64,000 nt of DNA from Methylobacterium organophilum (GTDB lineage Bacteria; Pseudomonadota; Alphaproteobacteria; Rhizobiales; Beijerinckiaceae): NCBI RefSeq assembly GCF_022179465.1, contig NZ_BPQV01000003.1, positions 248,001 through 312,000 of the forward strand, given 5' to 3'. The notes beneath the pieces are model-generated. The model was not told the DNA's origin. It did no database searches and saw only the letters and a list, made by a program, of their open reading frames with translations. Below are positions 51,937-64,000 of the stretch, one piece after another. A program made the translations under genes and the position numbers. Position 1 is the first letter of the stretch. The number at the start of each line of letters is the position of its first letter.

Positions 51937-53010
51937 ATGAGCCAGTCCGCATCCCCGTCCCCGGCCGCCTGGGGCGAGGCCCCGAGCCCGCGCTACGCCG
52001 CGCTCGCCGCCCGCTTCCGCCCGGTCTTCGCCCGCATCCGCGAGGGCGCCGTCGCCCGCGAGCAGGAGCGCCACCTGCCCCACGAGGCGGTGGGCTGGCT
52101 GCGCGAGGCCCGCTTCGGCGCCCTGCGGGTGCCGGAGGCCGAGGGCGGCTTCGGGGCGAGCCTGCCCGACCTGTTCGAGCTCCTCGCCGAGCTCGCCGAG
52201 GCCGATTCCAACCTGCCCCAGGCCCTGCGCAACCATTTCGGCTTCGCCGAGGACACGGTCGGCAGCCCGCAGGATCCGCGCCGGGCGCATTGGGTCGCGC
52301 GGCTCGCCGCGGGCGACCTCTTCGGCGGCGCCTGGTCCGAGACGGGCGCGGCGGCGGTCGGCCGCTTCGAGACCCGCATCCATCGCCTCGGCGAGGGCTG
52401 GGGGCTGACCGGGCGCAAATACTACACGACGGGCTCGCTCTTCGCCGACTGGATCGACGTCGTCGGCACCGGCGAGGCGGGGGAGGAGACCTCGGTGGTG
52501 GTGCCGGCCCGCGGGCCGGGGGTCGAGGTGATCGACGATTGGGACGGCTTCGGCCAGCGGCTCACCGCCAGCGGCACGGCCCTGTTCGAGAACGCGCCGG
52601 CCGTGGGCGAACCGCTGCCGACGGCCATCCGCTTCGCCTACGGCCCGGGCTTCTTCCAGGCGGTGCATCTCGCCACCCTGACCGGCATCGCCCGGGCCGC
52701 GGCGGGCGAGGTGGCGCAGGCCGTGAGGCGTCGCGAGCGCACCTATTCCCACGCCTCGGGGCCCCGCGCGAGCGCCGACCCGCAGATCTTGCAGGTGGTG
52801 GGCCGCGCCCACAGCCTCGCCTACGCCGCCGGCGCCCTCAACCGGCACGCCGCCTGTAATTCCTCAACGAAGTTTGTCCTGATTTCGGGGGCCGCCCGAG
52901 GGACCTCCTCAATCGAATTTAACTCGACTCTCTTAGAACATTGCCCTTGCGTGCTGCTGCTCTCAAAGAACTTTGACTTTGATGACAATCGGCCTCTGCA
53001 GCCCTCCTAG
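51937..53010 (+). pseudogene. DszC/SfnB-type acyl-CoA-dehydrogenase-fold flavoprotein, truncated by an island
   Basis: The first ~307 residues match flavin monooxygenases with the acyl-CoA-dehydrogenase fold (DszC/SfnB group): LREARFGALRVPEAEGGFG, DSNLPQALRNHFGFAED, WSETGAAAVGRF, LTGRKYYTTGSLFADW and FGQRLTASGTALFENA. These enzymes oxidise organosulfur substrates with FMNH2. Homology stops near residue 307 (52,855), where about 90 C-terminal residues should follow. The frame runs on to 53010 as an unrelated tail (SSTKFVLISGAARG...). The break coincides with a repeat found twice more in the island, so an insertion removed the C-terminal helical domain. It would have acted with the NtaA/DszA-type enzyme. 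Confidence 0.85.
52863..52886 (+). repeat. Short repeat at island left boundary
   Basis: Core TCAACGAAGTTTGTCCTGAT, recurring with changes near 53503 and 57816. A weaker second match (CTCAATCGAATTT) follows at about 52909. It begins about eight bases after the point where flavoprotein homology ends. Confidence 0.6.
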
Positions 53011-53991
53011 TCGCGCGCTCATGCGTTCGGCACGATAGCACAACGTAGGGCTCTCCTGCGCTCCGATGAGGGGCGGAGCTTGGGGAGTTGGCGGGCTCCC
53101 ATGAGGCTGCACTCACGCCAGCGTAAGGCCATCTGAGTGCAAGGGGACGCCAGGGACGGATTGCGGCACCCAGGGCGACCGGTTTCGACACCGCCACGGC
53201 CCGAACTTGCTCGCTGCGCCGGATCGATCGGGGCCTCGACATCTCCCGACGAGCTGGGTCGGCTTCAACCACAACGTCGAACCTTGTCGCGCATCCGCGG
53301 CGGGACCGCAGGCTCCGCGACGTCGTCCGGGACGCGGCCCCATGACAATTCGTTCGCACTTCGCCGGCCTGGTTGAGCAACCCAACCGCCGGGATGGGGG
53401 CCGCGCAAGAATGATCGGAGAAGCCGGGCGTGCCCCCCACCCTCCGGCGGGATAAATTCTCTAGAAAGCCTGTCCTGATTTTGGCGTGCGCTGAAGGCGC
53501 GCTCTCAACAAAGTTTGTCTCGATTGCCAGAGAAGGCTGAACTTCGTGGGGTTTGTCGCGATCAGGCCAGCGCGTCGCGGCTGCACGGAGGGCGTGAACG
53601 GGGCCTTCCGAACGCCTCTGGCAGCCCCCGTCTGGCCCGCCTCCGGTGACGGACGGGATGCGCTGGGTCGAACGCGCCTCCACGAGCGTCCGCGAGCCCA
53701 GGAGCCAGGCGCGGAAGCGATCTGTCGGCCGCGCTCGGTCGGGACAGGAGCCGTGACTGACCCCGCTTCACGAACCCGAAAAGGCCGTCGTGCCTGCGCC
53801 TGCGGGGGCGGGAACCGGAACTGGGGCCAGAATCGACCGGCGGGCGGGATCGACTTCGGGTGAAGCTGCCATCCCGATGGCTCTCGCGGGCCCGCCCTAT
53901 CGGTCCGCCCCACTTTGCTTTCGGCAAGGCTGCAAGGACAATGCCGACGTGGCGGATTCGCGACGGCCGGAGCCGCAGAGGAAGACAGCAC
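53011..53991. other. Island left flank, no gene seen
   Basis: About 980 bp with no recognisable gene. Frames of 80-280 residues on both strands are Arg/Pro/Ser-rich and include translated repeat sequence. It contains the longer repeat copy at 53464-53560. Confidence 0.6.
53464..53560 (+). repeat. 85-bp island repeat, copy 1
   Basis: Aligns without gaps to 57778-57862, about three quarters identical by eye; shared strings include GAAAGC, CTGAAGG/CCGAAGG and CGCTCTCAACA. Each copy holds TGTC-starting subunits: here at 53471, 53516 and 53554 (spacing 45 and 38). Regularly spaced subunits resemble transposase-binding sites at element ends; identity unknown. Confidence 0.65.
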
Positions 53992-55404
53992 GTGCGCGTA
54001 CAACCTCTTGACCTGACGACCGACGGTGACCCGCACCCGATCAAGAGGCTTGCCCGCCTTGCGCTGCCCGAACCGCTCCGTGAGGCGGATGTCGCAGAGG
54101 ATTTCGACCGTTGGATACGCGACAACGTCCCGAGCGAGAGGGACCGGATCGGCATGTTCGACCGGTTCGGAACACCGCCGCTGACGCAGCGCGAGCACGC
54201 CTTGTTCACGCTGCTGTCGATCCTGGCGATCGAGCACGGCGCCTGGCCGCTGGAAGAAGGATGCGGTCGGGCAATCCGGTGCCTGGAGGAGATCCAACGC
54301 CACTGGGCGCCCTCCGACCCAGTATCCTCATACCTTCGAGGGAAGGCCGCCGCGTTCGTCGCCCAAGGCTTTCGATGCGCGCGCGGCGAACCCGGGCGCC
54401 TGTTGTCGTTCCTGAACGGCGCGCCGCTCCGGGTCTGCGGGGACGGTACGGCGGCGCTGGCCTTCGGCGTGACCGCGCCGGTCAGCGACCTCATCTTCGA
54501 TTTCAGGGACGACGCCTTTGCGCTCCACAGCCTGCGTTCCATGGTCGAAGGCGACCGAACCGCGTTCGACGCCGCCGTCCTCGCTCAAGCGGAAATCCTT
54601 GCTCCCGCGATCGAACGGGGGGTAGCCCGCCTCTTCGAGCGCTGCGCACCGCCCCCGGGAGACTACCTCGCCGCCTTCCGGGACGTTCTGTCCGACGAGA
54701 GGTGGCTCCCAACGCTGCTCGGGAAGCTTGAGGGCCGTGCCGACCTGCGGGACAGGGTTGGCGGCATGCCAGCCGCTGCGGAATGGCTGCGGGCCATCGC
54801 CGGCGCACGCGCCTGGAAAGCCAACGACATCCGGCGTCTCGTTCGGCTCGAACCGCTCTTCGAGGACGATCCAGAGGCCTTCATGGCGGCAATCGTCTCG
54901 GGTGTCCGCGCCTTGGAGGGCTCGGAGCCGGCAAGCGCGGTGTTCGCTGCCTTGAGCCTCCTGCACCTCGCGCGCCGGCGTCGCGCGGTCCGCTCGGAGT
55001 TGGCCGACGCCGAGCGAGAGGAGGCCTTCGTCTTGGCGCTACGGGATCTTCCGTCAGGGGAAATGATCGTCCGTTTGCACGCCCAGCTTGCCGACCTGCC
55101 CATGGATATCCCAGGCGCCCGCGCCGTGTGGCGCCATTTGGGCAACGCGGAGAAGGGCCTGTGGCAGTGGCGGATCCGAGCGGTCGTCGGCGACGACCGA
55201 GCCCTGCGGCGCGGCTTGGCCGAGTTCCTTCTCGCCTGGATGTCGCAGGACGTCTACCGCGACGTCGAGCGCCTGGTCGTCGATCTCTTGCCGCCCGCGC
55301 AGGAACTGGACGTCCTCCGCACGCTGGCCCAATCGTGCGACCGGCTCACCTCGCTGCGCGCGGGTTGCCTCGCCCGAGAGATGACCTTCGGCCTGCCGGA
55401 CTGA
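53992..55404 (+). CDS. Unknown island protein, 470 aa, mostly helical
   Basis: Family not recognised. A 470-residue soluble protein, rich in Leu, Ala, Arg and Asp, predicted all-helical with no membrane segment or signal. GTG at 53992 follows AGAGGAAGA at good spacing; ATGs at 53860 and 53941 extend the frame by 44 and 17 residues. The region FRDDAFALHSLRSMVEGDRTAFD and the second half with repeated LRDLPSGEM/RLHAQLADLP-type helices look like alpha-solenoid units. It is convergent with the nuclease-like gene, six bp apart. Context suggests an accessory or defence role; no function can be assigned. Confidence 0.7.
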   Translation: MRVQPLDLTTDGDPHPIKRLARLALPEPLREADVAEDFDRWIRDNVPSERDRIGMFDRFGTPPLTQREHALFTLLSILAIEHGAWPLEEGCGRAIRCLEEIQRHWAPSDPVSSYLRGKAAAFVAQGFRCARGEPGRLLSFLNGAPLRVCGDGTAALAFGVTAPVSDLIFDFRDDAFALHSLRSMVEGDRTAFDAAVLAQAEILAPAIERGVARLFERCAPPPGDYLAAFRDVLSDERWLPTLLGKLEGRADLRDRVGGMPAAAEWLRAIAGARAWKANDIRRLVRLEPLFEDDPEAFMAAIVSGVRALEGSEPASAVFAALSLLHLARRRRAVRSELADAEREEAFVLALRDLPSGEMIVRLHAQLADLPMDIPGARAVWRHLGNAEKGLWQWRIRAVVGDDRALRRGLAEFLLAWMSQDVYRDVERLVVDLLPPAQELDVLRTLAQSCDRLTSLRAGCLAREMTFGLPD

Positions 55405-55410
55405 ACGGTC

Positions 55411-56655
55411 TCACCAACCGGGCGCAAACGGGTCGCCCGGACTTCCCGCCTCGTCGCGGCGGTGCGCGGCATGACGCCTGGACGGAAAGGACGAGACCCG
55501 TCCGTCCCCGTACCCCAGGCTGGCGGTCGCATCGATGAAGTCGCGGAGCGCGAGCCTTCCCGTCCGGTCGATGGCGATGATGTCGGCCGCCAAGGGTTGC
55601 CTGCGGTCGTCCGAGAGAGCCTCGGCGGCGGTCTCGGCGTCCGGGAAGAGACGCCCCAACGACAGGTCGCGGCCGGAGGACATGGCGATGCTGACGAACG
55701 ACGCGAAATCCCACCCGGGCGAGCGCTCGCCGCCATAGGCGTCGACCTGCCCGAAGGCCGGCGCCTGACCGTGGGCCCAGACATCGTGGAACACCTCGGT
55801 CGCCGGCATGACGGTCGTGATGAAGGCCCCCTTCCTCGCCCAGGCCGGGTAGAAGAGGTACCAGCCCATCCCGGTCGAGAGGAACGTGTCGAGCTGCCGT
55901 CCCTCGTTCCTCCCGACGTCGGTCAAGCCCGTCGCGGTCGCGTTCTTGGCTTGGAAGAGGACGATCCGGTACATCGGGCGCCCGAGGACGTGCACGCCGG
56001 CGACGACCGCGAGGTCCGCCGCGAGAAGATCCCGGCCCTCCAGCATGGAGGCGGTGCCGAGGTCGAGCGTGTATGTTTCCGGCAGGCCGGCTCCCGCCTC
56101 GTCCATGGCCGGGATCACACGGTGCTCGACCGCGCTTTGGATGTAATGGAGCACCGCTTCCGTCTTGAGCGGCTCGGGCTTGCAGCGTCCGCGACGGAGG
56201 GCGACTTCCAAGCCGTACTGCAGGGCCGTGAACAGAATGGCCTGAACCGGGTCGGCCCAGTATCTGGGCGACATCGCGAGCAGCTGTGCGACGAGATGGT
56301 GCCGCCCTTCCTCCGCGGCTCGATCCGGATCGAACGCTCCCGCCCCGAGGCCGAGCGTCGGGGCAAGTTGACGCCAGCCGACGCCACGCGACGTCACTTC
56401 GCCGGTCGATGCCATCGCTCCCAGGCCTCGCCGGGTGTCCTCGGCCAGGCTCGGCCGGACGCCACCGGCGTACAACCGCTCCAGGGCTGCCAGGAGGACG
56501 CCCCGCTGCCGCGGGCTCAACCTCGCGGGTAGGGATGCGATGCCGGCGAGCTTCCCAAGGGCGACCGTGGTGCGCAGGCGGCCGAATGCCCGGATGACCG
56601 GGTGGTCGGTTTGCCATGCGTCTGATTTGTCCCAGTCGTGGAAATCGGCAGCCAT
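55411..56655 (-). CDS. Unknown island protein with PD-(D/E)xK-like nuclease motif, 414 aa
   Basis: No family recognised. In the 414-residue product, residues 206-237 contain Glu206, Asp214 in AADLAVVAG, and Gln235-Ala-Lys237 at the end of a strand (YRIVLFQAKNA). The order acidic-Asp-strand-(E/Q)-x-K is the core of PD-(D/E)xK restriction-like nucleases, where QxK variants are common. The rest is helical. ATG at 56655 has GAGAGCGA upstream; the frame extends further but is Arg/Gly-rich. Faces the 470-aa gene. Nuclease activity is an inference from motif order. Confidence 0.65.
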   Translation of the reverse strand: MAADFHDWDKSDAWQTDHPVIRAFGRLRTTVALGKLAGIASLPARLSPRQRGVLLAALERLYAGGVRPSLAEDTRRGLGAMASTGEVTSRGVGWRQLAPTLGLGAGAFDPDRAAEEGRHHLVAQLLAMSPRYWADPVQAILFTALQYGLEVALRRGRCKPEPLKTEAVLHYIQSAVEHRVIPAMDEAGAGLPETYTLDLGTASMLEGRDLLAADLAVVAGVHVLGRPMYRIVLFQAKNATATGLTDVGRNEGRQLDTFLSTGMGWYLFYPAWARKGAFITTVMPATEVFHDVWAHGQAPAFGQVDAYGGERSPGWDFASFVSIAMSSGRDLSLGRLFPDAETAAEALSDDRRQPLAADIIAIDRTGRLALRDFIDATASLGYGDGRVSSFPSRRHAAHRRDEAGSPGDPFAPGW

Positions 56656-57152
56656 CGCGTCGCTCTCAGTGAGGCGCGAGGGGATAGCCGACCCGGTCCC
56701 TGCGGGCCAGGGATTGCCGCGCAACTTCCCCGAGGGATGCCCCGAGGCGTCGGCTCCCAAGGGCGGGCATCCCGTCGGTCCGCGGTGACCATCAAGCCCT
56801 GCGCGGGCTCCATGGCGGCGCGCTCGCACGATGGAGTGCGCCCTGTTTGGATAGGTGACGAGCCGGTGCACGTGGCCATCCTCGCCCGGCACTCGACAGC
56901 GAGAGAAGCTCGACGCCGTCCCGTTCGCCGAACCGGGTCACCTCGGCTGGCACATCAGCGTCGCGCAGCTCACCCCTGAAAGTGCGCGCGTGCCGATGCC
57001 GCAACCGGCCGATCGGGCGGTCGTCGCGGAAAGGGCTCATGCCCGCACTCGACCCACCTCATCGGGCGGTGTCAGGCGCCGGCGTCGCCGCCCGGATGCC
57101 CGACCATGCACCCGGCGCACCAGACCGAATTCCTCTCGGCAAGCGAGCCTCG
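56656..57152. other. Intergenic, no gene seen
   Basis: About 500 bp upstream of the nuclease-like gene. Frames here have shadow-like composition. Holds the promoter for the nuclease-like gene; no motif recognised. Confidence 0.5.
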
Positions 57153-57425
57153 CTATGCGCATCCACGGCGCGCCAACTCGCCGCGGTAGCCGCCGGCATA
57201 TTGGCCCTTGCCATCCGGCCTGCAGCGGCTCCGAACATCGCTCCTTCGCTGTGTCGGCAGAAGGCTCCCGGTCGGGGTGCTGACCGACACTCCCAGACGC
57301 CGCTCCATCCCCGCACGCGGGCCCCCTGCCTGTTGCCCACTGGCATTGTACGGGGCACCCCCTTGCGCGAGGGCCGACGCGTAAAGAGCGGCGCTCGCAG
57401 CAGCGGCAAACAGGATCGTTTTCAT
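57153..57425 (-). CDS. Small secreted protein, 90 aa
   Basis: The ATG at 57425 is preceded by a near-perfect GGAGGTGAAT ribosome site. The product begins with a clean signal peptide, MKTILFAAAASAALYASALA, then QGGAPYNASGQQAGGP. Such small exported Gly/Gln/Ser-rich proteins are common in this group. The last third (CRPDGKGQYAGGYRGELARRGCA) reads less naturally, so the end may be frameshifted. Function unknown. Confidence 0.6.
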   Translation of the reverse strand: MKTILFAAAASAALYASALAQGGAPYNASGQQAGGPRAGMERRLGVSVSTPTGSLLPTQRRSDVRSRCRPDGKGQYAGGYRGELARRGCA

Positions 57426-58222
57426 ATTCACCTCCGCAATCGACGATGGGGCGCGTACGTCTCGCCGTTTTCTTTGGATTTCGTCCCGCGGATCGCGGTG
57501 GTTACACGTCCGCGGATGTCCATGGCTTGTGACCGCGCGTGGCGTCCGATACCGTGGGCGTTCCGCCGCTCCCGAGCGAGGCGGAGCGATGATGCCGGAC
57601 GAAGCGACGGTAGCGGTCGATCAGCCCGGCCCTTGGCTTCGCCCCCCGTCCGCGCCTTCGCCACCACGGTGGCGGCTCTACGATCGCCAGGCCAGCGCTC
57701 TCGCCCACTGGGCGGGGCTCGCCGCCCGGGGCTTGGAACGGCCGATCCGGCGTGGGCCGGCGGGCCAAGCTATCGCGAAAGCTTGTCCCGATTTCCGGCC
57801 TCGCCGAAGGAACGCTCTCAACACAATTTGTCCTGACTTCCCGGGAAGCCTGTCCTTCGAGCGAGCCCGGCTGCCGGACCATGTCTGGGCGTGGCCCGCG
57901 GACGGGCGACGCTCGATGGGCGTGGACGTCCTATCAGCTCCGGCGCCGCCCCTTCCCGGGAGGGCCGACCCGGACGGCCTGCCGTGACCGGCCCCGCTCG
58001 GCGCCCGCCCCGAGGTCCGCCCCGGAGCCCGGCGAAGGGCCCGCCTGCCGTCGGCTCTTCCGCCTCATCCGCCGGCGTCGCGGCACTTCGCGCCGTGCCG
58101 CCGAGATCGGCCTCGACACCACCTCGCTCAGGGGCCGCCCGACGCTCCGGGCGCCTCGCCGCCCGGAGCGCGCCGCCCCGGAAAACGGTCCCGCGGGCCC
58201 GAGCGATCACGGCGTCGGCAGG
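57426..58222. other. Intergenic, holds island repeat copy 2
   Basis: About 800 bp downstream of the ubiquitin-like operon. The repeat at 57778-57862 lies here. Other frames on both strands are Arg/Pro/Ala-rich with no recognisable homology. Confidence 0.55.
57778..57862 (+). repeat. 85-bp island repeat, copy 2
   Basis: Gap-free partner of 53464-53548 in the same orientation, with TGTC subunits at 57784, 57829 and 57851; the first two have the same 45-bp spacing as copy 1. The two copies flank the 4.2-kb stretch with the helical, nuclease-like and secreted-protein genes as direct repeats. Confidence 0.65.
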
Positions 58223-59590
58223 TCACCCCGCCGCGTTCCGGCCCCAGAGGTGCTCGGCCGCCGCGTCCGATTCGGGCTTGGAGCAGAACTCGCAGTGCGG
58301 ATCGCGCGCCCGCCGCAGCCGGCGCCGCCCGATGGGGGCCTTCCAGGGATCGACGGCCCAATAGTTGGTCGCCGCCGCCCCCGCGTTCGAGCGCAGAAGT
58401 TCGACCACCAGCAAGGCGCCGGCCATGCTCGACACGAACGCGAACGGGGCGAGCACCTGCCTGCCTTCCGGTGTCAGCAGTGTCTGTGCGGCGCAGAGCT
58501 GCTTGAAGAGGCTGTCATAGGCCGTGCCCACGATCCCCGCGGGATCGATCTGGGGATGGGCCCGATGGATCCGCCCGGCGGCCTCGGCCGAGATGAAACC
58601 CTCCCTGACCGCGGCGAGGTCGACGCCCAGCCCATCCGCGATCGAGCGCTCCCGCGCGTGCTCGTCGGGAACGTGACGGTAGATGCAGGCCATGCAGGCA
58701 TCCTGCGTGGGCTGCCGGTGCGAGTGCACGACGACGCCGCGCACGTCGGTCGTGGACGCGTCGAGGACCCGGCCCGGAAGCTCCTTCTGGATCCCGCGCC
58801 GCGCGCGCCTGCTGTCGACCGTGACGATGGCCGTGGCGGGCGGCCCCGCGGATTTGCAATAGGCCGAGAAGTCCTGGACGAGTGGTTCGAACGCGAGCTC
58901 GGGGAAGTCGGCCGCGGCGCGCTCGGCGAGCGCGACGGCCTTGTCGCGGCCGACATCCTCGTCGCCCAGGTAGAGGCAGCGGTTGGGATTGCCTGAGCCT
59001 ACCGTTTTCGGGTCGACGATGCGGAGGCGGCCGACGGCGCGCAGGTGGCGCAGGGCGCGAACGAAGCCGTGGGCCACGGCGCCGGCGCCGACGAGCACGG
59101 CGTCCGAGAGATCGACGGTCGTCGCGAGCGCCGCGTCCGGCACGCCGAGCTGGTCGAAGTCCAGCCGGAGCGGGTAGGCGACGGCCGGAAGTGCCGGGTC
59201 GTCGAGCAGCATCCGCAGGGTCGCGGCGGCCGCCGGGCATGCGGCGACGGCGGCCAGCAGGGGATGGGGCGGCGGGCCGCCCGTCCGCCCGACGGGGCGG
59301 ACATCGACGGTGGCGCCGCCGGCGTCGATGGCGGCGTGCAGCCGGGGCAGGTCCGTCCGCGCGGCCGCCTCGCCGATGACGAGTTCGAGCTGCGCCTCCT
59401 CGGCCGGCGAGGTCACCACGCCGACGGTCCGCGCGAGCAGGGCCGCCACTTCCGCCGCCCAGGCGGCGTCCGCGCCGCCGGGAGGAGCGGTGACCAGAAC
59501 CGCCCGGTTGAGGCGCTCGGACGCGTCGTCCTCGTCGCTTCCGAGGATGGCGGCCAGCATCCGGGCGTTCTCTTGGGCGGGCGTGATCAT
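58223..59590 (-). CDS. E1-like (ThiF/UBA) adenylating enzyme of a bacterial ubiquitin-like system
   Basis: A 455-residue E1-like enzyme. The Rossmann ATP site has VLVGAGAVAHGF (168-171), Asp193 in RIVDPKTVG, Asn201 and Arg204 in NPNRCLY, and Lys217 in GRDKA: the ThiF/MoeB/UBA set for adenylating a ubiquitin-like C-terminus. Two CxxC pairs (Cys299/Cys302 CMAC; Cys433/Cys436 CEFC) form the usual zinc site. The N-terminal ~150 residues are a separate alpha/beta domain seen in E1 proteins of multi-ubiquitin operons. The thioester cysteine is not obvious; Cys245 is one candidate. ATG overlaps the JAMM stop (ATGA). Last gene of the operon. Confidence 0.9.
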   Translation of the reverse strand: MITPAQENARMLAAILGSDEDDASERLNRAVLVTAPPGGADAAWAAEVAALLARTVGVVTSPAEEAQLELVIGEAAARTDLPRLHAAIDAGGATVDVRPVGRTGGPPPHPLLAAVAACPAAAATLRMLLDDPALPAVAYPLRLDFDQLGVPDAALATTVDLSDAVLVGAGAVAHGFVRALRHLRAVGRLRIVDPKTVGSGNPNRCLYLGDEDVGRDKAVALAERAAADFPELAFEPLVQDFSAYCKSAGPPATAIVTVDSRRARRGIQKELPGRVLDASTTDVRGVVVHSHRQPTQDACMACIYRHVPDEHARERSIADGLGVDLAAVREGFISAEAAGRIHRAHPQIDPAGIVGTAYDSLFKQLCAAQTLLTPEGRQVLAPFAFVSSMAGALLVVELLRSNAGAAATNYWAVDPWKAPIGRRRLRRARDPHCEFCSKPESDAAAEHLWGRNAAG

Positions 59591-60057
59591 GGCGTCACCT
59601 CGATGCGGATGCGCTCGCCCGGCCGGCGCACATGCTCCCACAGTCCAGCGTCCGAGAGCTCGTAGACCATCGCCTCCTCCAGGAAGGTCCCGGGCGTCGC
59701 CGTCGCGGCGAAGCGCGGCAGCACCAGGGAGAGGGCCCCGCGATGCCGGACGATGGCCCAGGCGTCGTCCGCCTCGGAATGGAACGCCCTGCCCGGATGG
59801 GTATGGACCTGGGCGACGATCTTGAGACGGTGGGCGCGAAGGTGCCCCATCAGCGCGCGCATGCTCGCGGGCGGCAGGTGGAAGTAGTCCTCGGCGGTGG
59901 CCTGCTCGGGTTCGTAGACCTCCTGCACGGGCGTCGGCGCCGCCGAGGCCGAGCGCGCGAGCCAGAGCACGGCGCGCTCCTCGCCGCGCCGCCCCCCGAC
60001 GCGGAGGCGGTCGAGGGTTTCCGCGAGGATGGCGGCGGTGCAAGCGACGGCTGTCAT
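59587..60057 (-). CDS. JAMM/MPN-family metallopeptidase (Prok-JAB, deubiquitinase-like)
   Basis: A 156-residue JAB1/MPN metalloprotease. The zinc motif is complete: Glu26 or Glu27 in GEERAVLWL, then His85-x-His87-Pro in QVHTHPGRAF, Ser94 and Asp97 in HSEADDAW (HxHP-x6-Sxx-D). Such enzymes trim the C-terminus of ubiquitin-like precursors or remove them from targets. Here the precursor ends in GGGG followed by Ala-Arg-Ala, so trimming is the expected job. It overlaps the E2-like stop (60054-60057) and the E1-like start. Cytoplasmic. Confidence 0.9.
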   Translation of the reverse strand: MTAVACTAAILAETLDRLRVGGRRGEERAVLWLARSASAAPTPVQEVYEPEQATAEDYFHLPPASMRALMGHLRAHRLKIVAQVHTHPGRAFHSEADDAWAIVRHRGALSLVLPRFAATATPGTFLEEAMVYELSDAGLWEHVRRPGERIRIEVTP

Positions 60058-60491
60058 CCGACCGCCCTCTTCCAGCAGCGCCAGATCTGGTCGAGGATGC
60101 CGAGCAGATCCAGGCCGGACTGGCCGCGGTAACCGTCCCACCGCTCGCCGACATGGCTGAAGTGGGTGTGGTACTCGCGCGTTCCGCGCATGCAGACGAA
60201 CATGCGGCCGGTCACGGGATGGGGACTGGGGTGGAAGATGCCGCCGGCCCCGGGGGGAGCCTGCGAGAGGTGTTGCCCGGCGGCGTCGAGCAGTTCGACC
60301 GACGGGGGGAGGTCGTCCCAATCGACGCAGGTGAAACGGAGCCTCAGGGGCGCGGCGGTCGGATGCCCGAGGATCACGTCGAGCACGGGATACTCCGCCT
60401 GAAGGACCGTCCAGTTGCGGTGGGCCGCGGTTCGGGAATCGAGGCGGCGCACGTCGCGCTCGAACGCGGCCCGGGAGAGCAGCTCAAGCAC
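60054..60491 (-). CDS. E2-like protein of a multi-ubiquitin operon (Prok-E2 family)
   Basis: A 145-residue protein with GTG start at 60491, overlapping the polyubiquitin-like stop by eight bases. The fold pattern, helix then strands with FTCVDWDDLPPSVELLD and a following GGIFHPSPHPVTGRMFVCMRGTREYHTHFSHVG, resembles the prokaryotic E2 family that accompanies multi-ubiquitin genes. Cys100 in MFVCMRG, near His108 and His110, is the candidate conjugating cysteine. The family lacks classic E2 HPN text, so the assignment leans on gene order. The frame extends further but its upstream part is a shadow of the polyprotein gene. Confidence 0.78.
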   Translation of the reverse strand: MLELLSRAAFERDVRRLDSRTAAHRNWTVLQAEYPVLDVILGHPTAAPLRLRFTCVDWDDLPPSVELLDAAGQHLSQAPPGAGGIFHPSPHPVTGRMFVCMRGTREYHTHFSHVGERWDGYRGQSGLDLLGILDQIWRCWKRAVG

Positions 60492-61200
60492 GGGCGCCCC
60501 CACCGCCCTCGCGGGGCCCCCACTCGATCTCGACCTCGCCGGAGAGCCCGTTCCCGGCAAAGGAGGCGGACGGATCGATGTCGCGGTTGCCGACGGTCGT
60601 GATCCACGTCGCGGTGTCGCCGAGCTCCAGCTTGCGCGCGGCGCGGACCAGCACGTCCGCGACCGGCGTCGTCGCGGGAACCCGCACCGCCCCCTCGGCC
60701 GGGAAAACGCCGCTCGTGGTGAACACGGTCACCAGCACGAAGTCCGGCCGTTGCGCGCGCCGCGAGACGATGTGCTCGACGCCGCGAGTCTCGAACGACA
60801 CCGCGCCGCCGGGCCGCAGGATCTTGTCGGGCTCGTCCTCGCGCTCCAGCACGAGGTCGTGGCCTGCCGGGACGTGCAGGATGGCGAGGAGCTCGTCGAC
60901 CTCGATCCGGCCGTCACCCCAGACCTGGCCGACCTCGTCCACCGTGAAGGAGAAGCTGCGGTCGCTGCGGAAGCCGCGAAACGCGCCGCCTTCCTCGGCG
61001 ACGAGGTCGACCTTGTCGTCCGTGCCCACGAGGTGGGTGCGGCCGCCCCGGACCAGGATGAGCTGGTGCTCGCTCGCGGGCAAGAGGCCGGCCCTGGTGA
61101 GGACCTCACGCCCGGTGACCTCGCCGTCGTCGAAGCGAACCGGGGTGCCGTTCACCGGGAACACGAAGCTGCGGGCCCGCGCGTTATCCATAACCTTCAT
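60484..61200 (-). CDS. Multi-ubiquitin-like protein with three beta-grasp repeats
   Basis: A 238-residue polyprotein of the Multi_ubiq type. Three ubiquitin-like units follow one another: about residues 10-79 (SFVFPVNGTPVRFDDGEVTG, strand-strand-helix), 81-150 (SFSFTVDEVGQVWGDGRIEV) and 151-230 (FVLVTVFTTSGVFPAEGAVR). The C-terminus is WGPREGGGGARA: a glycine run with three extra residues, so the active Gly end needs processing, presumably by the JAMM peptidase. ATG at 61200 follows GGAGACGAGG. Three units rather than one suggest a prebuilt chain or conjugation as a block. First gene of the operon, divergent from the Xre/RES pair. Confidence 0.88.
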   Translation of the reverse strand: MKVMDNARARSFVFPVNGTPVRFDDGEVTGREVLTRAGLLPASEHQLILVRGGRTHLVGTDDKVDLVAEEGGAFRGFRSDRSFSFTVDEVGQVWGDGRIEVDELLAILHVPAGHDLVLEREDEPDKILRPGGAVSFETRGVEHIVSRRAQRPDFVLVTVFTTSGVFPAEGAVRVPATTPVADVLVRAARKLELGDTATWITTVGNRDIDPSASFAGNGLSGEVEIEWGPREGGGGARA

Positions 61201-61316
61201 CCTCGTCTCCACCTGCTGGCGCGCGCCGACGTTCCCGTACACACTCTTGACGGATGACGGCCTTGGACTAAAAGACGCTTTCAGTCTCGGCTGGGACTGT
61301 ATGTATCTGGACTAGG

Positions 61317-61333
61317 TCGGACGTCAAGTCCGA
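61317..61333. promoter_or_regulatory. Inverted repeat in the divergent toxin-antitoxin/ubiquitin-like promoter
   Basis: TCGGAC, GTCAA, GTCCGA: perfect 6-bp arms, 22 bp before the antitoxin start. Nearby direct repeats of TGGAC (61308 and 61337) share the half-site. The 154-bp gap also holds the promoter of the ubiquitin-like operon, so an antitoxin bound here might control both. Confidence 0.6.
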
Positions 61334-61354
61334 TTCTGGACCAGGGAGGGGTTG

Positions 61355-61744
61355 ATGACGAATTCTGCCCACGGCGCCCGGAACGAGGCTGGGTCGTCGC
61401 GGCTCCCTGTGGAGCTCGAAGCGTTCTTCGCGATGGCCGACAGGTGGCACCTGAGCGCCGACGAGCAGATCGCGCTTCTCGGTTCGCCGGCGCGGTCGAC
61501 GTTTTTCAAGTGGAAGAAGGAAGGGGGCAGCATCCCGCCGGACACGACGGAGCGGGTGTCTCACCTTCTCTCGATCTGGAAGGCGCTGCGCATCCTGTTT
61601 ACCGTAGACGAGCGTGGGGACGAGTGGATCAGGGCGCCGAACGAGTATTTCGATGGGGCGAGCGCGCTCGACGTCATGCTCTCGGGGAAATTCGCGGACT
61701 TGTACAAGGTCCGCATCTACCTGGATGCTCAGCGTGGCGGCTGA
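61355..61744 (+). CDS. Xre/MbcA/ParS-family antitoxin (DUF2384 domain)
   Basis: A 129-residue antitoxin. The N-terminal helical Xre-like DNA-binding part covers about residues 20-60 (ADEQIALLGSPARSTFFKWK). The C-terminal toxin-binding domain is near diagnostic: RAPNEYFDGASALDVMLSGK followed by DLYKVRIYLDAQRGG. GGGAGGGG precedes the ATG. It overlaps the RES gene start by 20 bp, the usual antitoxin-first order. Neutralises the RES toxin and represses the operon in known pairs. Confidence 0.93.
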   Translation: MTNSAHGARNEAGSSRLPVELEAFFAMADRWHLSADEQIALLGSPARSTFFKWKKEGGSIPPDTTERVSHLLSIWKALRILFTVDERGDEWIRAPNEYFDGASALDVMLSGKFADLYKVRIYLDAQRGG

Positions 61745-62447
61745 AGATTTTTCCCTGACGACGTGGAAGGGTGACGCGTTCCGCTTGATCCCGTCCCGGT
61801 TTCCGCCCGTGTCCGTCTATGACGGGCTCGTGGCCGACGGCAGGGTCGAGGCCCTCGTCGCGGTCGAGGACATCACGAACCCGCGCCTCCGCTCGATTGA
61901 CCGCCTCGCGCGGCTCCGACCCGGGGTCCCGGCCGATGCCCCGAGGCTGCAGAACTGGAACCACGCGCCCTTCGCCTACGGCAACCCGGAGGGCAGCCGC
62001 TTCTTCGATCACCTGAGGCCGTGCCTGGAACTGGCTGCGGACCGCCAGACCGCGCTCGCCGTGTCGGTGGCGCGTCGCGAGAGGTTTCTCGCCCGGACCC
62101 GTGAGGCGCCCATCGGCCTCGACATGCGCATGCTGCGGACGCCGGCCGAGGGACGCTTCGTGGACCTTCGCCACGTCCCGGCCGATCTCGACGCGAAGGC
62201 GTGCCGCGAGATCGGCGCCCGCGTATCCTCCGAGGCCGACGGGGTTCTCTACCACCCTCCCGAGCGCTCAAGCGCGACGTGCCTGGCCGTGCTCAGGGCA
62301 AGCGTGCTCGGCCGCTCGATCCAGACGGTGCACTACCGGTACGTCTGGACCGGCCGCCGCATCGCCCTCCTCTACGCGTTCGACGACGAGGGGCGCGAGG
62401 TCAGGCCAGAGACCCTGGGCGGCGAGGAGGACGTGCTCGCCGCCTGA
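61725..62447 (+). CDS. RES-domain toxin (NAD+ phosphorylase-type)
   Basis: A 240-residue RES protein of the larger class, with the typical opening FRLIPSRFPPVSVYD (residues 19-33) and LVAVEDITNPRLR. The later FVDLRHVP, VSSEADGVLYHPPERSSATCLAVLRASV and VHYRYVWTGRRIALLYAF segments match RES core strands. Known RES toxins degrade NAD+ by phosphorolysis or hydrolysis and halt growth. ATG overlaps the antitoxin gene by 20 bp. Paired with an adjacent ubiquitin-like operon it may act as an abortive effector; that link is an inference. Confidence 0.85.
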   Translation: MLSVAAEDFSLTTWKGDAFRLIPSRFPPVSVYDGLVADGRVEALVAVEDITNPRLRSIDRLARLRPGVPADAPRLQNWNHAPFAYGNPEGSRFFDHLRPCLELAADRQTALAVSVARRERFLARTREAPIGLDMRMLRTPAEGRFVDLRHVPADLDAKACREIGARVSSEADGVLYHPPERSSATCLAVLRASVLGRSIQTVHYRYVWTGRRIALLYAFDDEGREVRPETLGGEEDVLAA

Positions 62448-62460
62448 GCTCCGCCGCGCC

Positions 62461-62805
62461 TCAGCGCAGCTCGCCTGCCGCCCAACCGTCCAGGCGGACG
62501 AACTCGTGGAACGTGCAGCCGCGAGCCTGGCAGACGACGCTCGGCAGGACCCGGCCCTCCGCCGTGACCGTGTGGTCCTTCAGCACGAGCGCGTGACCCT
62601 GCGAGCAGGTCATCTCGGCCTTGAAGCGCCTCACCGTCGACGGGTGGCAGGCCTTCCAGTGCAGCGGCGGCGGCCTGTCCCCACCGCCGTAGCGGCGGAT
62701 CGTGACCTGTCGGTGCCGCGGTTCAACGGGACGTTCGGTTCGAGGCGCGTCGCCCGAACGGCCAAGCCAGAGACGGCGCAGGAGGGATCGGAGCCAGTCA
62801 AACAT
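62461..62805 (-). CDS. Small zinc-ribbon-like protein, 114 aa
   Basis: No family recognised. The basic N-terminal half (MFDWLRSLLRRLWLGRSG, RQVTIRRYGGG) precedes a Cys/His cluster, MTCSQGHALVLKDHTV then VVCQARGCTFHEF. C-x3-H followed by C-x4-C resembles a zinc-binding treble-clef or ribbon. Convergent with the RES gene (13 bp apart). Zinc ribbons and RING-like treble clefs often accompany bacterial ubiquitin-like systems, so it may belong with the conjugation genes, but nothing proves it. Confidence 0.65.
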   Translation of the reverse strand: MFDWLRSLLRRLWLGRSGDAPRTERPVEPRHRQVTIRRYGGGDRPPPLHWKACHPSTVRRFKAEMTCSQGHALVLKDHTVTAEGRVLPSVVCQARGCTFHEFVRLDGWAAGELR

Positions 62806-63289
62806 GCGGTGTCACCAACATCCACAAGGGCCGTGATTTCGCGAGCGTATGCCGTGCCCTGAGACCGGCCGAACGGTCGGGCACGCCGTCATTACACCAT
62901 GCCGGCGCCCCCGACATCGTGAGGAGCCTGAACGCGGCGCAAGCTGGGGGCCATCGGTCCATCGCCGACAAGCAGGAGAGCCGGCGCTGGGGGGCCGAGC
63001 CCGTTCCCCGGCTGTAGGAGCACAATGGGACGGACTTCGGCGCAGGACGCTTCCCGCGACGAGACCTCAAGCACGGGAGGGCTTCGGCGAGTATTGGGCC
63101 GGTCCCGCGATCTTGCAGCACGCTGCTGCGAAATTGCCTTGGGCCGCCATCCTCTTGCGTCTCTCGGGTTCCCGGGCGGCGGCCGCCGCGTCGCAGGACC
63201 CGGGCGCCCGGTGCGCCCGCCGCGGGCTCTCGGATGGGGCAGCCCCGCACGGTCCGCTCACGTATCCCGCCGCCGAGGCGCAACCTCCG
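62806..63289. other. Intergenic, no gene seen
   Basis: About 480 bp. Minus-strand frames of 146-161 residues cross it but look like shadows (Arg/Pro/Ala/Ser-rich). No repeat copy was noticed here. Confidence 0.5.
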
Positions 63290-64000
63290 TTAGAGCGGGC
63301 GCGCATGCGTCCTGGGAATGCGGCGCCGGAGGTCCCGCGGTACATCCTCCCGGGACCACACCGTCGTGACCTTACGGCCGGCGGTCGCGAAAACCGGCTT
63401 GATGCCGGCCCGGTCGAGGGCTTCCCGCACCCACCGAATGCCGGATCCGATGTCCCTGGCGAGGGCCCCCGTGGTTGCGTACTCGCTCTCGAAGGCCGCC
63501 AACGCATCCTCCGGGACGAGGATCTCCCCGCATGCGGTCGCGGTCCCGGTCAGCAGGCCTTGCCGGACGATCAGGCCGACGACGTCGGACGGCACCGTGA
63601 TGCGCCGGCCGACCTCTGCGAGGGTGAGGCCGCCGCCCCCGCGGGACCGGCGCGCGGCCCTGATGTCCTCCGGGTCGAGGAGGAACCCCGCGAGGCCGGG
63701 CGCGTCCCGCAGGACCGCCCTGACCCGGAGCTGTCCGGCCAAGATCATGGCGCAGGTGCCGCGCACGCCGTCGACCTTGCCGTGCTGGCTGGCGCGCGCG
63801 AGCGGCAGGAGGCCGGCGGGAGCGGCCTCGACGGTCGGCGCTGGGCCGCGGAGTCGGGCCAGCACGGCGTCGATGGCACCCCGGTCGAATACCTCGGCCT
63901 TGATGCCGGCGCGACGATGGATCTCGGCTGGCGGGACGATGCGGGCGGCCACCAGCATCCTGGCCTGTCGCTTGGCCAGCCCGAGCGCGGCGGGCAGGTC
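63290..64000 (-). CDS. DNA-binding protein, C-terminal part (possible TniQ-family), cut by window edge
   Basis: The frame has no stop up to base 64000, so the 236 visible residues are the C-terminal part of a longer protein. Two or three helix-turn-helix-like units are visible: ALGLAKRQARMLVAARIVPP, LTLAEVGRRITVPSDVVGLIVRQGLL, and GALARDIGSGIRWVREALDRAGIKPVFA near the end. The last unit, F-x3-YATTGALAR...GIKPV...W-x2-EDV, resembles the repeated domain at the C-terminus of TniQ-type proteins, which guide Tn7/Tn5053-like transposition. If correct, the island is, or was, a mobile element. The family call is tentative; DNA binding is more secure. Confidence 0.55.
   Translation of the reverse strand, partial: DLPAALGLAKRQARMLVAARIVPPAEIHRRAGIKAEVFDRGAIDAVLARLRGPAPTVEAAPAGLLPLARASQHGKVDGVRGTCAMILAGQLRVRAVLRDAPGLAGFLLDPEDIRAARRSRGGGGLTLAEVGRRITVPSDVVGLIVRQGLLTGTATACGEILVPEDALAAFESEYATTGALARDIGSGIRWVREALDRAGIKPVFATAGRKVTTVWSREDVPRDLRRRIPRTHARPL

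Follow-up and report, generated by a model that had tools for sequence, protein, structure and literature searches.

We analyzed a 64,000-nucleotide stretch of the Methylobacterium organophilum genome (contig NZ_BPQV01000003.1, positions 248,001 to 312,000; hereafter the window), in which a four-gene operon for the conjugation of a ubiquitin-like protein (Ubl) lies divergently from a gene pair (61355-62447) that encodes an Xre-type DNA-binding protein and a protein of the RES fold. The features on which the argument rests are listed below, numbered from the first base of the window. Papers are cited by PMC number.

58223-59590, minus strand: E1-like enzyme (E1-N and ThiF domains), with the predicted thioester cysteine Cys366 and the CxxC pairs Cys299/Cys302 and Cys433/Cys436
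59587-60057, minus strand: JAMM/MPN peptidase, BilC-like, with Glu27, His85, His87, Ser94 and Asp97
60054-60491, minus strand: E2-like protein of the Metal_CEHH/BilB type, GTG start, with the predicted catalytic Cys100; CEHH corresponds to Cys100/Glu106/His108/His113
60484-61200, minus strand: Ubl of 238 amino acids with three beta-grasp repeats and the end REGGGG-ARA; Multi_ubiq, PDB and Foldseek matches
61201-61354, no strand: divergent promoter region with an AGTCC/GGACT array, the 154 bases between the Ubl and Xre genes
61247-61274, plus strand: predicted Xre-RES promoter TTGACG-N16-TAAAAG, from the sequence and an alignment
61300-61327, minus strand: predicted Ubl-operon promoter TTGACG-N16-TACATA, from the sequence and an alignment
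61328-61341, no strand: putative operator GTCC-N6-GGAC beside the -35 box on the Ubl side, read from the sequence
61355-61744, plus strand: DNA-binding protein of the Xre/MbcA/ParS antitoxin type (Pfam Xre-like-HTH 1.8e-10, Xre_MbcA_ParS_C 5.5e-10)
61725-62447, plus strand: RES-fold protein with degenerate catalytic residues, a probable pseudo-RES (Pfam RES 1.4e-11; Foldseek match to NatT 8qnl, 9.3e-7)

The Ubl operon and its conjugation chemistry

The original prediction, made from the sequence and its open reading frames, had placed four overlapping genes at 58223-61200, and both the positions and the overlaps (8, 4 and 4 bases between the four minus-strand genes) were confirmed. Pfam assigned Multi_ubiq to the Ubl (2.6e-13), Metal_CEHH to the E2 (3.8e-11), Prok-JAB to the JAMM protein (1.2e-5), and E1-N (3e-41) and ThiF (2.2e-13) to the E1, so that the N-terminal domain of the E1, thought to be distinctive, belongs to a known family. 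The GGGG-ARA tail that had been predicted for the triple Ubl is there. PADLOC recognized BilC (5.6e-16) and, weakly, BilB (7.6e-5) and BilD (2.3e-6) in the operon and gave no BilA match, and NCBIfam matches of the E1 were mostly ThiF/MoeB-like and all far below the cut-offs. A search of the organism's own genome with the E1 (E up to 0.001) returned the window copy as the one match. Censuses for E1-N were positive in 6 of 150, 2 of 397 and 4 of 385 genomes, the own genome being counted each time, and a plasmid search with the E1 gave seven matches, of which H1, H2, H4, H5 and H7 were examined; H7, a 14% match, lay outside any such operon.

The fold of the Ubl was checked by modeling. As a whole the AlphaFold model is weak, with a mean pLDDT (the per-residue confidence score) of 62.5, but residues 11-80 are modeled well, and its best Foldseek matches are the solved multi-ubiquitin proteins 9cd2, 9d5a, 8u38, 9d59 and 9d5b (E 3e-8 to 2e-6); phmmer against the PDB likewise found 9d59 (1.7e-7) and 9cd2 (1.6e-4). 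The structure 9d5b is a filament from Methylobacterium brachiatum, and multi-ubiquitin proteins of this kind reportedly form calcium-dependent filaments. In the relatives, the Ubl ends in EGGGG followed by a variable tail (ARA, TRA, A, NA, AF or ASGAR), and the preceding residue is Arg throughout save for a His in locus L021, in a comparison where the end of L055 was unreadable in the frame chosen and L020 was incomplete.

The enzymes resemble those of the Bil pathway: by phmmer against the PDB, the E1 matches BilD (8tyz_A, 1.1e-13), the E2 matches BilB (8tyz_C, 3.3e-6) and the JAMM protein matches BilC (8tyx, 4e-12). Pairwise alignment sets E1 Cys366 opposite BilD residue 417, and E2 Cys100, Glu106, His108 and His113 opposite BilB residues 138, 144, 146 and 151. 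The catalytic residues of Bil are Cys417 of BilD and the CEHH motif of BilB with Cys138 (PMC11354881), so that the E1 thioester cysteine, described in the original prediction as not obvious, can be identified as Cys366. The candidate E2 Cys100 and the complete JAMM motif were, on the other hand, named correctly. Among aligned relatives, Cys366 is kept in 15/15 rows; Cys100, His108 and His113 of the E2 are kept in 14/14 and Glu106 in 12/14; and the five JAMM residues are kept in 15/15. The cysteines of the two E1 CxxC pairs, also predicted, are conserved as well. Pfam describes Metal_CEHH as a predicted metal-binding domain, and the candidate reading of the second gene as a plain metal-binding protein was dropped after the BilB alignment, as non-canonical E1 chemistry was after that with BilD. 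The conjugation chemistry thus looks canonical from these alignments; the simplest model would be trimming by the JAMM protein, then transfer through the E1 and E2 cysteines. In sum, the predicted compact conjugation operon of the multi-ubiquitin kind stands, and the suggested departure from canonical chemistry is not supported.

Such operons were expected to be known from comparative genomics, and Iyer 2006 (PMC1779556) indeed describes them; the expectation that related Ubl operons act in phage defence agrees with what a review reports of BilABCD (PMC11354881). BilABCD, the bacterial ISG15-like system (PDB 8tyx, 8tyz, 8tz0), is the closest relative, sharing a set of four genes for Ubl, E2, JAMM and E1 and the aligned catalytic residues. 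However, the window Ubl has three beta-grasp units and BilA two, and the window E2 is Metal_CEHH whereas the BilB of a plain BilABCD locus (L123) is DUF7665. Because of the three Ubl repeats and the missing BilA match in PADLOC, we file the operon as Bil-like rather than as BilABCD. It also resembles type 6e of Iyer, defined by one to three Multi_ubiq repeats with an E1 and a JAB protein, and related operons: these have a multi-Ubl gene, some of their E1s carry a distinct N-terminal domain, and they are proteobacterial, sporadic and mobile. Type 6e is, however, described with an inactive E2/RWD, whereas the Cys100 of the window-type E2 is invariant, and the available part of PMC1779556 mentions no regulator adjoining the operon. 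The NGR234 operon in that paper contains "two conserved uncharacterized proteins", one predicted to bind metal, and the second may correspond to a gene of the present locus. With the Bub systems (9cd2, 9d59, 9d5a, 9d5b, 9ea8) the window shares a multi-repeat Multi_ubiq protein and controllers in the divergent slot. Bub is taken here as annotated in the loci examined: its E1 is DUF6791-ThiF accompanied by DUF6527, and five DUF6527-type loci lack a JAMM profile match, whereas the window has a JAMM protein, a CEHH E2 and an E1-N+ThiF E1, and DUF6527 (Pfam) gave no score in any of its six operon and pair proteins. We class the operon as a new subtype within an established kind.

Linkage of the Xre-RES pair to immune operons and the shared operator array

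The Xre-RES pair adjoins the operon in 14/14 relatives whose E1 shares at least 55% identity and for which there is upstream sequence (L008-L019, L053 on Rhizobium leguminosarum pRLN3, and L117 from genome G188); five of these, L008-L012, nearly duplicate the element in the window. Across genera, L013-L019 keep the pair in the divergent slot with protein identities of about 57-70%; L007 (E1 30%) and L020 (incomplete) are uninformative on the linkage. In four operon relatives that are more distant, the slot is occupied by other genes: L054, L021 and L055 have a helix-turn-helix protein and an ImmA/IrrE protease there (the L021 protease scores as capP at 4.7e-33 in PADLOC, and L055 has two extra genes closer to the operon, one CopG-like), and L056 has a WYL protein. 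The same domain types make up CapH+CapP and CapW, which PMC13373217 describes as controllers.

We then looked at the pair from the side of the RES gene. A tblastn search of plasmids with the RES protein gave 126 records, the best 30 of which were listed, and H8-H24 were examined (H10 is L053 and also H1). Among these best matches, the RES gene was divergent to an immune-type operon in all 12 of H8-H19: the same four-gene operon as in the window (H10), ThiF with JAMM (H8, H9, H11 and H12; the JAMM of H8 and H9 by profile only), multi-ubiquitin accompanied either by ThiF-type genes and DUF6527 (H14-H17) or by ThiF (H18, by tblastn, and H19), and, in H13, a CD-NTase next to SLATT and Tle1-like genes (Pfam SMODS, AGS_C and SLATT_4, PADLOC cyclase). 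The RES genes of H20-H24 had no divergent immune-type operon (5/5); in H22, a methyltransferase and a restriction endonuclease are encoded upstream of it on its own strand. Censuses of 385 and 397 genomes for RES each gave 21 positive genomes, the own genome counted, and 4 of 20 regions examined, out of 41 non-own RES places, were linked (G746, G188, G365 and G472). One of them, G472 (L123), is plain BilABCD (PADLOC BilA 5.7e-40, BilB 6.2e-63, BilC 6.3e-66, BilD 1.4e-158).

For counting, near-copies of L008 (L009-L012) and of L062 (L118) and two loci whose contigs have the lengths of the L069 and L070 records (L120, L121) were left out, giving 23 linked and 19 unlinked rows. The neighbours of linked RES genes fall into six types: the triple-Ubl operon (10 rows), E1/E2-JAMM (4), multi-Ubl with ThiF and DUF6527 (5), multi-Ubl with ThiF (2), a cyclic-oligonucleotide-based antiphage signaling system (CBASS; 1) and BilABCD (1). 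A six-frame profile check detected an E1, Ubl, JAMM or CD-NTase in 23/23 linked and 0/19 unlinked loci, the positives being so by construction, since the group labels were set from the neighbours beforehand and the profiles were partly built from linked loci (that for CD-NTase from L061 alone). L123, which was no source of profiles, was still detected (JAMM 6e-10, E1 4e-4), and in L064 the E1 alone was found although the record annotates a multi-ubiquitin gene. Sixteen of the 19 unlinked loci have more than 2 kb on the divergent side; L127, L128 and L130, with less than 1.5 kb, are uninformative. Of the loci themselves, G365 (L118) and an R. etli plasmid (L062) encode identical multi-ubiquitin, ThiF and DUF6527 proteins.

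The intergenic regions of these loci resemble one another. Alignment of 17 gap regions from six partner types gave GTCCAAATTTGGACTTGAC...AGTCC..GATATAGAC.GTCCA.ATCGGGACT...TTTAGTCCA...CGTCAAGAGTC, which we read as face-to-face promoters (TTGAC-N16-TATAGA and a divergent partner) embedded in an array of AGTCC/GGACT half-sites. Half-sites were counted within 150 bases of Xre. The near-identical copy L008 has five, versus 0.85 expected by shuffling; at least three were found in 23/23 linked loci (mean 4.2, shuffled 0.36) versus 2/19 unlinked ones (mean 0.8, shuffled 0.17), and a perfect GTCC-N6-GGAC in 17/23 versus 3/19. The array goes with Xre-RES, because the gap holds 0-1 half-sites in 4/4 loci where a relative of the operon has another controller. 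The Xre-RES complex of Pseudomonas putida is a palindrome-binding repressor (PMC12204516).

Active-site residues of the linked RES proteins and the proposed switch

In a tree of 42 RES proteins, the 23 linked and 19 unlinked sequences are split by one branch (support 99/97); the split is present in 98% of bootstrap trees, and 0/500 shuffles were as low. The BilABCD-linked RES (L123) sits on a long branch beside the unlinked side. Partner types are mixed within the linked side, the CBASS row pairing with a Bub row and the E1/E2-JAMM rows lying among Bil-like rows, which indicates that the Xre-RES pair has changed partners.

The unlinked RES profile aligns with NatT (8qnq). The linked profile gave no PDB match at E up to 1, and the connection to NatT came through the unlinked profile and through Foldseek, where the RES model of the window (mean pLDDT 61.7) matches NatT at 9.3e-7 and everything else at E 0.49 or worse. 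Arg87, Tyr97, Glu108, Ser181 and Arg183 of the unlinked L069 map to NatT Arg82, Tyr93, Glu104, Ser184 and Arg186 (the numbering offset is ours). The active site of NatT comprises Arg23, Arg82, Tyr93, Asn193 and Ser184, with Arg186 binding phosphate (PMC11535050); Glu104 is placed in the site by our alignment, and RES toxins are said to carry an R-E-S triad (PMC12457610). The five mapped NAD+-site columns are kept in 19/19 unlinked RES proteins, whereas Tyr, Glu and Arg at positions 93, 104 and 186 are absent from 23/23 linked ones. The Tyr column holds Glu in 22 of 23 linked rows and Ile in one, the Glu column V, I, M, K or A in all 23 (Fisher 2e-12, the rows not being independent), and Arg186 is replaced in all 23. 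Of the five, the window RES keeps only Arg82. Having lost these residues, the linked RES proteins are probably pseudo-enzymes.

Our favored reading, to which we give a probability of roughly two in three, is that a disarmed toxin-antitoxin pair acts as the switch of a Bil-like Ubl conjugation system on a putative Tn7-like element. Its starting points are what the sequence contains, namely the genes, the catalytic residues, the conserved linkage, the operator array and the loss of RES residues; from them we infer repression, a release signal, conjugation, its targets and a role in defence. Xre and its RES-fold partner, with NAD+ cleavage probably lost, would bind GTCC-N6-GGAC over the two face-to-face promoters and repress the Ubl operon as well as their own genes. 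A signal of infection or stress, perceived in the pocket of RES or through loss of the complex, would lift the repression. The JAMM protein would then cut the Ubl back to its glycines, the E1 would adenylate it and carry it on Cys366, and the E2 would receive it on Cys100 and attach it to targets, an attachment that the JAMM protein could undo. A broader version, which we consider slightly better than an even bet, is that one pseudo-RES/Xre family with one operator code serves as a portable sensor-repressor of Bil, triple-Ubl Bil-like, Bub, E1/E2-JAMM and CBASS operons, and that its dead pocket has turned into a receptor for an infection or stress metabolite.

Several points weigh against the favored reading besides the construction of the profile check. 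The loss of activity is read from alignment columns, and both structural models, of the Ubl and of the RES protein, are of modest confidence (pLDDT 62.5 and 61.7). Since the linked RES clade is one branch, the loss of the active site is one event rather than 23. Arg82 is kept in 7/23 linked proteins, that of the window included, Ser184 in 3/23 and the column taken for Arg23 in 18/23; Asn193 faces a Cys even in the unlinked profile and so gives no split between the groups. The Sphingobium herbicidovorans RES gene (L060:6971-7618) appears frameshifted near its end, which makes the Arg column of that row unreliable. The unlinked loci L133 and L134 have three half-sites and three unlinked loci have a perfect palindrome, so the half-site motif is partly ancestral to this type of Xre.

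NAD+ depletion is a common immune effector, and the RES protein could still be a live toxin with other pocket residues, such that conjugation or stress would eliminate Xre and leave RES to arrest the cell. The RES fold is indeed kept (Pfam RES, Foldseek), all 23 linked rows contain the pair, 22 of them with an unbroken RES gene, and the Glu conserved in place of Tyr in 22 of 23 rows and the Arg82 kept in 7 also speak for it. We regard this as unlikely, since Tyr, Glu and Arg are lost in every linked row and kept in every unlinked one, and R82A in the active NatT E29D ended NAD+ depletion (PMC11535050) while the same Arg is lost in 16/23 linked rows. If the pair were instead an ordinary addiction module that stabilizes mobile DNA, its company would be explained by co-travel with the operon on plasmids and transposons, and the carriers are mobile (a putative Tn7-like element here, plasmids elsewhere), with unlinked RES-Xre pairs also found on plasmids. 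Such co-travel is hard to reconcile with a pair held in the divergent slot across genera at the identities given above, with different controllers in that slot in four other operon relatives, with partner operons that change while the pair remains, and with lost active-site residues and shared operators spanning the operon promoter; we rate it as quite improbable. Bub systems set a precedent for non-canonical conjugation chemistry, and the Ubl is nearest in structure to multi-ubiquitin proteins, some of Bub pathways, so that an oxyester or the lack of an E1 thioester could be imagined here, but the invariant Cys366 opposite BilD Cys417 and Cys100 opposite BilB Cys138 leave very little room for it.

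Carrying element, neighbouring genes and significance of the controller

Two further features of the window bear on the setting of the operon.

52855-52882, plus strand: left end of a putative Tn7-like element, with the same first base against unrelated flanks in four other loci and repeats like TnsB sites
62461-62805, minus strand: small Cys/His protein of 114 amino acids (TC-x2-GH ... C-x4-C-x2-H), with homologues beside the operon

Four Methylobacterium/Methylorubrum species (L008-L011) share the window sequence from 52854/52855 onward at 99.9% identity, and M. rhodesianum shares it at 99.4-99.8% from 57504, where a contig edge lies. The flanks diverge at the same base in four loci. To the left of 52855, the nearest of the five genomes compared has 85% identity to the chromosome and the others match it in pieces of 66-70% at best. 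Farther to the right lie TniQ, TniB, rve-like and TnsA-like genes, the rve and Mu-transpos_C matches being slightly below the Pfam cut-offs. Given the near-identity across species, the differing flanks and the Tn7-like genes, the operon looks like recent cargo of a Tn7-like element. Its right end was not found, nor did comparing the flanks yield any match past the break. The Tn7-like stretch runs from 52855 to 64000 and on to about 101 kb (own-contig coordinates), nearly identical in several species of the Methylobacterium group. End-like repeats are nested in it at 52863, 53459, 53504, 57772 and 57817, and past the window the shared stretch (L033:1589-11819 on its own contig) has genes of the metal-efflux type (OEP, ACR_tran, HlyD_D23/CusB). 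Between the element end and the operon, the reading frames 53860-55404 (plus strand) and 55411-56892 (minus strand) had no Pfam, NCBIfam or PADLOC match and, among the loci compared, are present in the near-copy L008 only. A Bosea multi-ubiquitin/Xre-RES locus (L066:8814-12362) adjoins Mu-transposase-C, TniB and TniQ genes, and therefore Tn7-like carriage may be common among such loci.

The 114-amino-acid protein has no Pfam match above the cut-off. Its homologues stand beside the operon with Xre-RES in L008, L013-L019, L053 and L117 and also in the CapH/CapP-type loci L021, L054 and L055; none was found (tblastn, E up to 1e-4) in the Bub, E1/E2-JAMM, CBASS and BilABCD loci or in L056. From its residues and distribution, it is a probable zinc binder kept with this type of operon. 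PD-(D/E)XK nuclease genes recur near the Xre-RES/Ubl loci (L053:1-3801, L013, L015, L016, L018, L064 and L068) and are annotated in L055 and L062 too, several of them adjoining a UvrD-type helicase gene; perhaps they mark a common site of integration or belong to a defence system that acts as a partner.

Most of the novelty lies in features that the original prediction did not cover: the divergent Xre-RES genes, the operator array common to both promoters, the small gene for a Cys/His protein and the putative Tn7-like carrier. The Cap controllers CapW, CapH+CapP and CapK+CapS (PMC13373217) are likewise regulators at CBASS, Bil and Bub promoters, whereas the controller here is an Xre antitoxin with a pseudo-RES, and the terms "Xre" and "RES domain" are absent from the main text of that paper. 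As to transcriptional control of the neighbouring operon, for instance in response to DNA damage, the evidence in the window is the operator array. RES-Xre toxin-antitoxins (NatRT, P. putida RES-Xre, GndRX) share the fold, the gene pair and the DNA-binding antitoxin, but the pair described here has lost active-site residues and is a constant neighbour of immune operons; GndRX has itself been proposed as a domesticated, non-canonical pair (PMC12457610). We found no report of a pseudo-RES/Xre controller among the papers listed in searches of the open-licence literature, nor in the available parts of PMC13373217, PMC1779556 and PMC9503650, the last of which contains both "RES domain" and "ubiquitin-like" and, in that part, describes no such linkage. 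Because the search was limited to that literature, with the main Bub and Bil papers outside it, the novelty of the controller is provisional.

How bacteria hold dangerous immune operons silent until they are needed is an open question, and the occurrence of the same pair beside several kinds of immune operon suggests a new family of immune switches. The idea lends itself to quick testing, as a single protein pair and a single DNA motif can be set against several immune operons. The role of RES proteins in immunity has been called unresolved (PMC11535050); they would gain a place beside immune systems and, if our reading is true, a disarmed toxin-antitoxin pair would represent a new route from toxin to regulator.

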